Of a stretch of DNA of 64,000 nucleotides, positions 26,673-30,646 are shown one piece after another. Within the stretch, counting starts at the first letter, position 1. Every line of letters begins with the position of its first letter. This DNA comes from Arthrobacter sp. 35W (lineage in GTDB: Bacteria > Actinomycetota > Actinomycetes > Actinomycetales > Micrococcaceae). The stretch is taken from NCBI RefSeq assembly GCF_000482545.1, contig NZ_KI519455.1:496001-560000 (forward strand), written 5' to 3'. A program made the position numbers and the translations under genes. Under the pieces are notes generated by a model. The model ran no database searches, had not been told where the DNA came from, and saw only the letters and a list, made by a program, of their open reading frames with translations.

Positions 26673-27182
26673 ATGAGGACGCACGCCCTGATTGACTCGC
26701 CGTTGGGTGTCTTGACCGCCGTGGCCGACGACGGCGCCCTGTGCGGGGTGTACATGGAGAGCCACAAGCGGCTCCCGGGCCCGGAAACCATGGGTGCGCT
26801 GGTCCAGGCAGCCACCGACCCGCTGTTCGCCGCTACGGCCCAGCAGCTGGGCGAGTACTTTGCCCACGACCGGCGCGCCTTTGACCTGCCGCTGGCCCCG
26901 GTGGGCAACGCCTTCCAGCACAAGGTCTGGGAGCAGCTGCGGCTGATCCCCTACGGCGAATTGCGCAGCTACGGGGACATCGCCCGGATTTTGGGCGACA
27001 GGTCCCTGGCCCAGGCGGTGGGCTCGGCCAACGGCCGCAACCCGATCAGCATCATCGTCCCCTGCCACCGGGTGGTGGGTGCCGATGGCTCGCTGGTGGG
27101 CTACGCCGGCGGGCTGGCGCGCAAGGAGTTTCTGCTGGAGCTGGAAAACCCCGCGCGCGGGCACGCCGAGGCCCTGTTCTGA
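26673..27182 (+). CDS. ogt: methylated-DNA--protein-cysteine methyltransferase (first copy)
   Basis: 169 residues. Suicide acceptor that removes O6-alkyl groups from guanine. The acceptor-cysteine motif is IIVPCHRVVGADG and the C-terminal GYAGGLARKEFLLELE is standard. The N-terminal ferredoxin-like domain is present. No Ada-type Zn/phosphotriester domain. Its stop overlaps the start of the sigma-factor gene by one base (TGATG), making a coupled Ogt-sigma-Ogt operon. Confidence 0.93.
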   Translation: MRTHALIDSPLGVLTAVADDGALCGVYMESHKRLPGPETMGALVQAATDPLFAATAQQLGEYFAHDRRAFDLPLAPVGNAFQHKVWEQLRLIPYGELRSYGDIARILGDRSLAQAVGSANGRNPISIIVPCHRVVGADGSLVGYAGGLARKEFLLELENPARGHAEALF

Positions 27183-27679
27183 TGGTGCCCTCGCCGGGTC
27201 GGGTTCCGTTCGAGGTGCTGGTGGAGCACCACGGCGCGGCCATGCTGCGGCTCTGCCGAGCCCTGGTGGGCTTCCAGGAGGCCGAGGACGTGTGGCAGGA
27301 GACCTTTCTGGCCGCCCTGCGCGCCTATCCGGAGCTTGACGACGGCGCCAACACCGAGGCGTGGCTGGCCACGATTGCGAAGCACAAGGCCACCGACCAC
27401 CACCGCCGCGGCGCCCGGCTGCCGGCCCCCATGCCCGAGCTGCCGGAGGCCGCGGACCCGGGTTCCGCCGTCGGGCTTCCCCTTGAGGCGGCGGAGCTGT
27501 GGACGCTGGTGGCCACGCTGCCGCCCAAACAGCGCGCAGCCATTGGCTACCACTACCTCGCCGGGCTGCCCTTCGCCAGGATCGGCGAGCTGTTGGGCAA
27601 TACAGAGGCCGCCGCGCGCCGGGCCGCCGCCGACGGCATGAAGACACTGCGCGCCCGCACGAATGGAGACTTGCCATGA
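27182..27679 (+). CDS. ECF-like RNA polymerase sigma factor
   Basis: 165 residues. Region 2 is recognisable (FQEAEDVWQETFLAALRAYP, then WLATIAKHKATDHHRR) and region 4 as LPPKQRAAIGYHYLAGLPFA followed by IGELLGNTEAAARR. No anti-sigma gene is adjacent. It is sandwiched between two alkyltransferase genes with single-base and ATGA overlaps, so it most likely belongs to a DNA-alkylation response; the signal is not evident from sequence. Confidence 0.88.
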   Translation: MVPSPGRVPFEVLVEHHGAAMLRLCRALVGFQEAEDVWQETFLAALRAYPELDDGANTEAWLATIAKHKATDHHRRGARLPAPMPELPEAADPGSAVGLPLEAAELWTLVATLPPKQRAAIGYHYLAGLPFARIGELLGNTEAAARRAAADGMKTLRARTNGDLP

Positions 27680-28416: not shown

Positions 28417-29253
28417 CTACTGAGCGGACAGCTCCGCGGTGATGGCGGCGGCCCGGGCGGCGGCGGCCTGCGCGCCGGCGCTGACGATGCCGGGCAGACC
28501 CTGCGCGTCAAAGGTGGCGATGGCCTGCTCGGTGGTGCCGTTGGGGCTGGTGACGCCCCGGCGCAGGGCCGTTGGATCGGCGCCCGGCTCGGCCAGCATC
28601 AGGCCGGCACCGGCGACGGTTTCCCTCGCCAGCACGGCGGCAATGGCGTCGGAAAGTCCAAAGTCGCGGGCCGCAGCGGCCATGGCCTCCGCAAGGTAGA
28701 ACGCGTAGGCCGGGCCCGAACCGCTGATGGCCGAGACGGCGTCCTGCTGCTCCTCGGGGATGTCCAGCACCACGCCGGAGCCGTCGAACACCTGGTGTGC
28801 GGCGGCCAGGTGCTCAACTGTGGCGGACGTGCCGGCGGAGAGGGCCACCACGCCGCGGCCCACCTTCAACGGCGTGTTCGGCATGGAGCGGACCACCGGC
28901 TGGCCTGCGGGCAGCACTGCCTCCATCTGGGCGATCGACACCGCGGCGGCCACGGAGACCACCACCGTGCCCGGACGCAGCGAGGGGGCGATCTCCCGGC
29001 ACAATGCTGCAATGCCCACTGGCTTCACTCCCAGCACGACAACGTCGGCAGCAACCACCGCCTCGGCGTTGGCCGTGGGCTCCTCATTGGAGGAGATCAC
29101 CGTAATGCCGTGCCGTGCTGCCAGCTCTTCGGCCCGTTCAATGCGGCGCACGGTGGCGACGACGGTGGAGGGGTGCGTGCCGGCGGCCAAGAGGCCGGAG
29201 AGGATGGCCTCGCCCATGGAGCCGCAGCCAAGGAATGCAATTCTGTTCGTCAT
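28417..29253 (-). CDS. proC: pyrroline-5-carboxylate reductase
   Basis: 278 residues. NADPH-dependent last step of proline synthesis. The N-terminal Rossmann motif is IAFLGCGSMGEAILSGLL, with VVLGVKP and the C-terminal SGSGPAYAFYLAEAM and VTSPNGTTEQA signatures. Start ATG at 29253. Upstream on the plus strand lie two tandem small-RNA units whose direction is divergent from proC. Confidence 0.96.
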   Translation of the reverse strand: MTNRIAFLGCGSMGEAILSGLLAAGTHPSTVVATVRRIERAEELAARHGITVISSNEEPTANAEAVVAADVVVLGVKPVGIAALCREIAPSLRPGTVVVSVAAAVSIAQMEAVLPAGQPVVRSMPNTPLKVGRGVVALSAGTSATVEHLAAAHQVFDGSGVVLDIPEEQQDAVSAISGSGPAYAFYLAEAMAAAARDFGLSDAIAAVLARETVAGAGLMLAEPGADPTALRRGVTSPNGTTEQAIATFDAQGLPGIVSAGAQAAAARAAAITAELSAQ

Positions 29254-29377
29254 GCCTCCATCCTTCCACCAACGCGGTGGTTGTGACGGTGCACGACGAA
29301 TGAAGAAGTGCGGTGATTGCCAGAGTTTTCCCAGCCTTGGCCAAGCCTTTGCCCAGAGAGGGGTCCTAGAGTCATAG

Positions 29378-29504
29378 GTACCTCATAAAGGTGCGAGTGA
29401 TGAAGTCCAAGAGCCGGTCCGCCGGGTTTTGGACTCCGCGTCGAAGGCGGCCTCCAGCAATTCCCCCCAGTTGCTGGAGGCGGCCTTCGACGCATTCTCT
29501 TTTT
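29378..29504 (+). ncRNA. candidate small RNA, unit 1 of a tandem pair
   Basis: Follows a TAGAGT hexamer (29367-29372). The predicted RNA begins with a small hairpin ACCT-CATAA-AGGT (29380-29392) and a conserved GCGAGTGATGA tract. A second stem AGTCCAA/TTGGACT (29404-29410 with 29429-29435) encloses a CCGG/CCGG stem. The last is a 23-bp near-perfect hairpin (29438-29460 with 29471-29493) whose loop contains CCCCCC, followed by a T-rich tail (CTCTTTTT). No credible reading frame. Unit 2 repeats the whole architecture about 235 bp downstream. Confidence 0.75.
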
Positions 29505-29612
29505 AACGTGACAATCACACCGTTTCGGGGCTGGTTTCGGACCATTTTCGATTAACGGTAAACATCCAGCCAACGCCCGGCTTGTTCCCAAGGTGGCTCT
29601 CTAGAGTCTTAA

Positions 29613-29745
29613 CTACCTCATAAGGGTGCGAGTGATGATCGGGTTGGGCCCGTCCTGGGGACCAACCAAATCGCCGGACAGCTGCCAGGGTTTCCCCCCA
29701 TCCCCTGGCTGGCTATCCGGCGATTTCGCATTTAATGCCGATTTT
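29613..29745 (+). ncRNA. candidate small RNA, unit 2 of a tandem pair
   Basis: Follows TAGAGT (29602-29607). It opens with ACCT-CATAA-GGGT (29615-29627), the same hairpin as unit 1 with a pairing-preserving G-U change, then GCGAGTGATGA. The second stem is GGTTGG/CCAACC (29642-29647 with 29662-29667), different in sequence from unit 1 but in the same place. The terminal hairpin (29668-29690 with 29702-29726; outer 11 bp AAATCGCCGGA perfect) again has CCCCCC in its loop. The downstream T-tract is weaker than in unit 1. Confidence 0.72.
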
Positions 29746-29755
29746 CCCCTGCCTG

Positions 29756-29822
29756 CCCAACTGAGTGACAGTTATCGCACGATTTCCGGCGAGAATCGTG
29801 CGATAACTGTCACTCAGTTGGG
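29756..29822 (-). terminator. perfect 29-bp-arm palindrome downstream of isomerase gene
   Basis: Left arm 29756-29784, loop 29785-29793, right arm 29794-29822, fully complementary over 29 bp. It lies 6 bp after the stop of the sugar-phosphate isomerase-like gene. It contains GTGACAGTTATCGCAC, identical to the palindrome at 13391. Confidence 0.8.
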
Positions 29823-29827
29823 TGGGC

Positions 29828-30646
29828 TCAGTCGACGGGGTGCTCGTCCTGGCCAAGATGCTTGCGGGCAAAGGCCAGGGTCTCCGCGAGCCACTCCTCG
29901 CGCTCTCCGGCGCCCTTGGCCTTACGCGTGGAAATCTCGGCCACCACGACGCCGTCGAACGCGTTCTCGCGCAGCAGGGCCAGAACCTCGGCGCATTCCT
30001 GGTCGCCATGGCCGGGAATCAGATGGTCGTCGCGGCCGGAGCCGGTGCCGTCGGTCAGGTGCACGTGCCGCAGCCGGCTGCCCAGGGCCTTGGCGGCCTC
30101 CAGCGAGCTGACGTCGGCCGTCGCGGCGTGGGAGAAGTCCCACGTGACGTGTTCGTAGTCCTGGCGCACGGGGTCCCAGTGCGGCAGGTAGGCCAGCGCC
30201 TCACGTCCCCGGACCCGCCAGGGGTACATGTTCTCCACGGCAATCTGGATGCCGAAGGCGTCGGCGATGTCGCGCACCCCGTGGGCAAAGGTCTCCGCGT
30301 AGCCGTTCTGCCAGCGGAACGGCGGGTGGACGACGACGACCTCGGCCCCGACGTCGACGGCCATCTGGGCCGAGCGTTGGATCTTGTTCCAGGCACTGCC
30401 CCAGACCTGCTGGGTCAGCAGCAGCGTGGGGGCATGGATGGCCATGATGGGCTTGTGGTAGCGCTCGCTCAACTGCATCAGCGCCTTGGAATCCTGGCTG
30501 GTGGCGTTGTGGGTGACCAGGATTTCCATCCCGTCATAGCCCAGATCGCTGGCCACGGCGAAGCCGTCGTGCACCGTCAGCGGATAGACGGAGGCGGTGG
30601 ACAGCGCAACAGGGATGTGATTCCCCTGCCCCTGGGAGCCAGCCAT
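29828..30646 (-). CDS. sugar phosphate isomerase/epimerase family protein
   Basis: 272 residues. AP-endonuclease-2-like TIM barrel with VALSTASVYPLTVHDGFAVA at the start, AEVVVVHPPFRW, AVENMYPW and the metal-site segments WDFSHAA and HVHLTDGTG. It matches the conserved actinobacterial protein encoded between ppx and proC (Rv0498-type). Substrate unknown. ATG at 30646, 5 bp after the Ppx stop, indicating one operon. Confidence 0.88.
   Translation of the reverse strand: MAGSQGQGNHIPVALSTASVYPLTVHDGFAVASDLGYDGMEILVTHNATSQDSKALMQLSERYHKPIMAIHAPTLLLTQQVWGSAWNKIQRSAQMAVDVGAEVVVVHPPFRWQNGYAETFAHGVRDIADAFGIQIAVENMYPWRVRGREALAYLPHWDPVRQDYEHVTWDFSHAATADVSSLEAAKALGSRLRHVHLTDGTGSGRDDHLIPGHGDQECAEVLALLRENAFDGVVVAEISTRKAKGAGEREEWLAETLAFARKHLGQDEHPVD

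Follow-up and report, generated by a model that had tools for sequence, protein, structure and literature searches.

The interval between proC and a xylose-isomerase-like gene in Arthrobacter sp. 35W contains two similar units, each with a run of six C in the loop of a long hairpin, and it raises the question of whether these are small RNA (sRNA) genes and, if so, whether they belong to the 6C RNA family or to a family of their own. The window, that is, the whole stretch of DNA analyzed here, is 64,000 nucleotides long; the two units and their neighbors are listed in Table 1.

Two tandem units between proC and an isomerase gene

The tandem arrangement, the TAGAGT hexamers, and the C6 loops that the original prediction had described were all read directly in the sequence where it had placed them, with the two units 235 bases apart. 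In each unit, TAGAGT precedes UACCUCAUAA[A/G]GGUGCGAGUGAUGA; a second stem comes next, and then a long terminal hairpin, the loop of which holds CCCCCC. The conserved sequence TACCTCATAA[A/G]GGTGCGAGTGATGA occupies positions 29379–29403 and 29614–29638, the 5′ hairpin of both units leads directly into GGTGCGAGTGAT, and the units could be aligned along their length with MAFFT. A simple scan of the window, with a loop limit of 8, flagged neither terminal hairpin as a terminator, and it found no TTGACA-type promoter at the units. The T-tracts after the terminal hairpins are weak, chiefly in unit 2.

Table 1. The two units and the flanking genes, with positions in the window
Feature	Position	Strand	Remarks
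proC (pyrroline-5-carboxylate reductase)	28417–29253	−	Pfam PF14748 and PF03807; divergent upstream neighbor
Unit 1 promoter-like region	29345–29372	+	G 29345, CAG 29354–29356, −10-like TAGAGT 29367–29372
Unit 1 5′ domain	29379–29403	+	Hairpin UACCU-CAUAA-AGGUG and conserved tail CGAGUGAU
Unit 1 second stem-loop (AGUCCAA.../...UUGGACU)	29404–29435	+	Fold and helix 2 covariation; loop not C-rich
Unit 1 long terminal hairpin (29438–29492), then T-rich tail	29438–29504	+	CCCCCC loop 29463–29468; presumed terminator
Unit 2 promoter-like region	29580–29607	+	G 29580, CA 29589–29590, TAGAGT 29602–29607
Unit 2 5′ domain (UACCUCAUAAGGGUGCGAGUGAUGA)	29614–29638	+	Motif searches, orthologue comparison
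Unit 2 second stem-loop (GGUUGG.../...CCAACC)	29642–29667	+	Fold and helix 2 covariation
Unit 2 terminal hairpin (29669–29725), weak T-rich tail	29669–29738	+	CCCCCC 29694–29699; presumed terminator
Xylose-isomerase-like TIM-barrel gene	29828–30625	−	Pfam PF01261; convergent downstream neighbor

Two further features of the surroundings were recorded. In the gap that separates unit 2 from the convergent isomerase gene, two perfectly matching 29-bp arms of an inverted repeat enclose a spacer of 9 bases (29756–29822), perhaps as a two-way terminator; Rfam microRNA matches at approximately 29751–29827 fall on this repeat and under their cut-offs, and they were rejected. Near proC, at 26673–27679, an O6-methylguanine-DNA methyltransferase gene adjoins a gene for a sigma-70-type factor.

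Folding and covariation of the predicted RNAs

On the plus strand, both units fold more stably than shuffled sequences (z = −8.76 for unit 1 and −4.58 for unit 2; none of 200 shuffles was as stable). The opposite strand likewise surpasses all 200 shuffles, though with z-scores somewhat less extreme (−7.19 and −4.11), and fold energy alone therefore gives no strand; what points to the plus strand for both units is the promoter motif, together with the tails and with G-U pairs that the orthologues retain. In the single-sequence fold of unit 2, other pairings largely displace the first hairpin.

Two differences between the units had originally been taken as covariation. The change from AGGT to GGGT in the first hairpin is one-sided, from U-A to U-G, and is therefore not compensatory by itself. 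The second stem does pair in both units despite its exchanged sequence, but this contrast is between paralogues, so that covariation proper had to come from orthologues. There, the homologues with compensatory changes that had been anticipated were found: among the unit-2 orthologues (n = 21), 99.1% of the cells are paired and 8 of 33 pairs show double changes, and among the unit-1 orthologues (n = 10), 94.0% of the cells are paired and 17 of 35 pairs show double changes. None of 500 shuffles matched the paired-cell and double-change figures in either orthologue set, whereas only one of the five covariation measures, “further pair types,” was equaled, by 31 of 500 shuffles in the unit-2 set. 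When the pairing partners were slid as a control, pairing fell to 26–49% of the cells; a slide of −1 in the unit-1 orthologues still gave 10 double-change pairs. Helix 2 shows double changes at 8 of its 12 pairs in the unit-1 orthologues and at 5 of its 9 pairs in the unit-2 orthologues. The 5′ helix has no double changes in the orthologue sets, its 3′ strand being near-constant and its 5′ strand varying almost solely within pairing; this helix is supported because variants of its loop length keep the pairing (ACCTCATTGAGGGT, ACCTCACAGGGT, ACCTCAAGGGT, and ACCTTCTCAAGGT; for example, CACCUU-CUC-AAGGUG). In the genus orthologues, the loop keeps C4–6 while the stems covary, which is the pattern looked for in a C-loop sRNA. 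The view that the units are RNA genes is supported by their conservation and covariation, by the promoter spacing that they have in common, and by the constancy of their position.

Distribution in the Micrococcaceae

A 25-base motif, searched with up to three mismatches, has just two sites in the 4.66-Mb genome of Arthrobacter sp. 35W, and the reversed-pattern control has none. The motif occurs in all 23 of the genus genomes (its own included), nine of which have two copies by pattern, and in a tenth (L006) a second core was seen when the loci were compared. Across the family, it is found in 187 of 295 genomes, which represent 27 of 32 genera, again with no match for the reversed pattern. The named carriers among the matches listed (at least 119 stretches, 80 of them with titles) include Arthrobacter, Nesterenkonia, Glutamicibacter, Paeniglutamicibacter, Micrococcus, and Kocuria, as well as Citricoccus, Zhihengliuella, Auritidibacter, Tersicoccus, and Psychromicrobium. 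A covariance model of the promoter and 5′ hairpin (R1) was positive in 17 of 25 genomes, mostly from genera in which the motif is scarce, and it found other loop lengths; the eight genomes that it missed are four of genus g6, two of genus g3, and two of another family. Under stricter filters, which lose weak matches, R1 matched 22 of 297 genomes in an order-wide sample and 2 of 346 in a phylum-wide sample, all of them Micrococcaceae. As far as sampled, the unit family is confined to the Micrococcaceae. Copies were also seen on two contigs with other labels: one labeled Sporosarcina (L098) has a proC region 79% identical to the window ProC and is therefore probably a mislabeled or contaminated assembly, and the other is labeled Acidobacteria (L111).

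The position next to proC is conserved as well. At 140 of 332 core occurrences in the fetched loci, the opposite strand encodes a ProC homologue no more than 900 bases upstream; the figure counts rows and not species, since loci often overlap or stem from a genome already represented. A TIM-barrel gene and a Ppx/GppA gene often come next, and other copies adjoin varied genes. No common theme emerged among the neighboring proteins scanned: 20 proteins hinted at amino-acid and nitrogen breakdown, and 89 of 225 gave a mixed list in which the top families occurred in 4 of the 89. An origin from phages or plasmids was rejected, with no matches in those two collections.

Variable 3′ loops and a near-invariant 5′ domain

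The 3′ part of the units is modular, with one or two hairpins; at one extreme it is a plain terminator, and at the other it has two C loops. Among 265 distinct core occurrences, which are non-independent (near-identical orthologues are counted separately, six are the second of a tandem pair, and at least one, L162, is a likely chance match), 178 have an unpaired run of five or more C (C5+), 26 have CCCCUC, 4 have UCCCC, 4 have CCUCCUU, and 53 have none of these. The last group, without an unpaired C-rich or anti-Shine-Dalgarno (SD)-like loop, indicates that loop pairing is not the job of every copy. An unpaired C5+ run is present in 149 of 209 units, compared with 32 of 180 mononucleotide-shuffled controls, and 6 of the 209 have two such runs in two loops. 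By sequence, in a set of 265 occurrences that was filtered slightly differently, [ACG]CCUCCUU is present in 11; it lies in the tail in L094 and L122, the exclusion of which leaves nine units, two of them classed as having none in the unpaired-loop test. In five of the nine, the sequence is UCACCUCCUU, and the predicted fold pairs part of it with GGAG; the other four expose GCCUCCUU in a large loop. We take UCACCUCCUU to be part of the 16S rRNA 3′-end word GGATCACCTCCTTTCT, which has four exact matches, in putative rRNA, in the Arthrobacter sp. 35W genome. In toy duplexes, C6, CCCCUC, and CCUCCUU each pair with some variant of a ribosome-binding site. The two C6 loops of the window gave −17.3 and −17.4 kcal/mol against a G6 site and a poor −5.9 kcal/mol against a standard SD site. 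Because G-rich sites are common, such a match names no target. The exchange among three loops that can each pair with a ribosome-binding site is the best clue to the probable repression of translation by the loop.

The part that defines the family is the 5′ hairpin together with GGUGCGAGUGAU, not the C6 loop. Motif positions 12–23 are nearly invariant across the 209 units, although this invariance is inflated, because some of the collection patterns fixed the core or allowed few mismatches. In six units, the core GGTGCGAGTGAT is tandemly repeated (loci L084, L115, which is a Micrococcus record, L194, and L212). A conceivable but less likely alternative places the function in the 5′ domain: GGUGCGAGUGAU would bind an mRNA, a protein, or the ribosome, while the 3′ hairpin would serve mainly as a terminator whose loop is secondary. 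Such a role would suit a core that is nearly invariant beside so changeable a 3′ part and that directly precedes a second core in six occurrences, as well as the resemblance of AAGGUG to an SD sequence. The loops, however, are much richer in unpaired C runs than shuffled sequences and keep C4–6 while their stems covary, and a search for complements of the core yielded no target: there were 15 non-self places with one mismatch, compared with 7 for the reversed pattern, and 9 of the 15 were ATCACCCGCACC, so the search was judged uninformative. Pairing of GAUGA with the 3′ tail was likewise dropped after inspection by eye, since GAUUC variants occur without a matching change in the tail.

Relation to 6C RNA

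The original prediction had proposed a covariance-model search with a comparison to Rfam 6C RNA and had allowed that the units might form a separate family; the Rfam scores bear this out. The 6C model RF01066 has no match at its gathering cut-off (47 bits) in the window, in the Arthrobacter sp. 35W genome, or in 20 loci of relatives; unit 1 reaches 24.7 bits, whereas two 6C controls reach 89.1 and 46.2 bits, and no Rfam family reaches its cut-off on the units. Conversely, the core GGTG[CT]GAGTGAT is absent from 19 fetched 6C loci, and nine 6C-positive genomes outside the Micrococcaceae gave no R1 match. Within the family, 6C matches with E ≤ 0.01 were found in 9 of 100 genomes, 4 of them over the cut-off. 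In genus g6, all four genomes sampled for 6C RNA gave a match to it, and the new motif is in none of 23; both occur in genus g11, where G032, G061, and G084 carry them on separate contigs, and this co-occurrence speaks for two families. Six loci (L289, L292, and L293 of g6; L290, L291, and L294 of g11) carry 6C-type RNAs that, judged by eye, seem to form at least three hairpins with CCCCC loops.

The units share with 6C RNA an actinobacterial host and a predicted hairpin-rich structure, and with 6C/B11 they have in common C-rich loops, a presumed terminator hairpin, and a likely pairing with G-rich ribosome-binding sites. They differ in usually having one C loop (both hairpins of a 6C RNA carry a C-rich loop with about six C, while CCCCCC in the window units is found solely in the terminal hairpin), in the near-invariant GGUGCGAGUGAU, in often having several copies per genome, and in their promoter and neighbors. 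In other Gram-positive bacteria, C-rich sRNAs such as RNAIII and RsaE/RoxS also direct C-rich unpaired stretches at SD sites; they belong to another phylum, and the likeness is one of mechanism. Two reports describe 6C RNA as an actinobacterial sRNA of about 90–100 nt (PMC2764107, PMC4046766). The Corynebacterium glutamicum 6C RNA is reported to reach 27 nt further at its 5′ end than Rfam predicts (PMC4046766), so that a 5′ part ahead of the C-loop hairpins may be a shared plan. Mycobacterium abscessus B11 is reported to repress an eccB4 reporter when one of its C loops, whichever it is, has been mutated, but not when both have (PMC10470900).

It is unlikely that the units are divergent members of 6C RNA. 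Their C-rich loop, their occurrence in Actinobacteria, the hairpin ahead of the loop hairpins, the few units with C5+ in two loops, and the subthreshold score of unit 1 would agree with such an origin, but the low scores throughout the window, genome, and relatives' loci, the absence of the core from 6C loci, and the distribution in g6 and g11 stand against it. The units look like members of an uncatalogued sRNA family separate from 6C, and the distribution suggests that this family replaces 6C RNA in parts of the Micrococcaceae. The unit family is not described among the matches listed for literature on 6C RNA, C-rich sRNAs, and sRNAs of Arthrobacter, Micrococcus, or the Micrococcaceae.

A shared promoter-like region

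After merging and a position filter, the 209 units gave 207 distinct upstream regions, of which 206 were counted (one with a poor −10 sequence was left out). Relative to the hexamer, they share G at −22 (0.88), C at −15 (0.67), C at −13 (0.85), and A at −12 (0.95), followed by TAgnGT. In 204 of the 207, a spacing of 5 or 6 bases separates the end of the hexamer from the motif. The hexamers were picked by a score favoring TA, T, and G, and conservation within them is therefore partly built in; the letters upstream were unselected by this score. A comparison was made with the RecA-NDp motif, which we take to be TGTCRGTG-N8-TAN3T. With up to two mismatches, this motif occurs upstream of recA in 14 of 14 genus genomes; the recA gene of Arthrobacter sp. 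35W has it exactly, as TGTCAGTG-N8-TAGCGT, and carries TGTCAGTGGCCTCCGCTAGCGT. At the place of the unit 1 CAG, the recA promoters have CAG in 10 genomes and CGG in 4. Like the RecA-NDp/PafBC promoters, the units have C[A/G] at −13/−12 and TANNNT, and CAG stands at the same place in unit 1 and the recA promoter of the same genome. Unlike them, the units have CNC where RecA-NDp promoters have TGT before CAG, and a conserved G at −22; family-wide, the units and the motif associated with PafBC control have no more in common than C −13, A −12, and TANNNT. These features suggest a non-canonical promoter in which an activator, possibly PafBC-like, takes the place of a −35 box; because the preceding TGT is not shared, the link to PafBC is a lead only.

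Two further explanations were considered. The conserved 5′ stretch could be a DNA operator just past the transcription start, and an ACCT-N5-AGGT inverted repeat is recognizable there by eye; this is highly improbable, given that the loop length varies with the pairing kept, that conservation extends to one side only, and that the downstream stems covary. The idea that the conserved GUG or AUG opens a small-peptide leader or coding region is scarcely credible and was rejected, despite the start-site-like AAGG-N5-GUG noted by eye. The frame from the GUG meets a stop after 3 to 36 codons or, for 86 of 208 units, none within the stretch read; 59 of 209 units have lost the AUG; and the stems change by pairing.

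Proposed mode of action and significance

The reading that we favor, with some reserve, is that the units are paralogous trans-acting sRNA genes of a Micrococcaceae family that block G-rich ribosome-binding sites through their loops, independently of Hfq, and share a 5′ domain. Starting from the family-wide conservation, covarying structure, loop composition, promoter motif, and conserved position, we infer the transcription, termination, targets, and effect of the units as follows. Each unit is probably transcribed from its own promoter, with a start just before UACC, and the predicted RNAs would end at the long hairpin, near 29504 (unit 1) and 29738 (unit 2). Such an RNA would join a near-invariant 5′ domain, formed by the hairpin and single-stranded CGAGUGAU, to an exchangeable 3′ part, and in many cases the loop of this 3′ part would expose a C-rich or anti-SD-like sequence. 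This loop may pair with G-rich ribosome-binding sites (matching UUCCCCCC) and thereby block translation without Hfq, as reported for mycobacterial B11/6C, while the 5′ domain could act as a common stability, protein-docking, or second pairing element. A more far-reaching version, which we put forward only tentatively, is that of a modular Hfq-free riboregulator with one 5′ platform, a shared activator-type promoter, and interchangeable anti-SD loops (C6, CCCCUC, and a copy of the 16S tail), in which each paralogue would address another class of ribosome-binding site and which would replace 6C RNA in much of the Micrococcaceae.

Hfq-free sRNA regulation in high-GC Gram-positive bacteria is poorly understood. 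With a near-invariant domain, often several copies per genome, and natural loop swaps, the units offer ready-made comparisons for recognizing the part that finds the target and the partner of the constant part. The family would add annotation to many genomes, with the promoter and synteny as guides.
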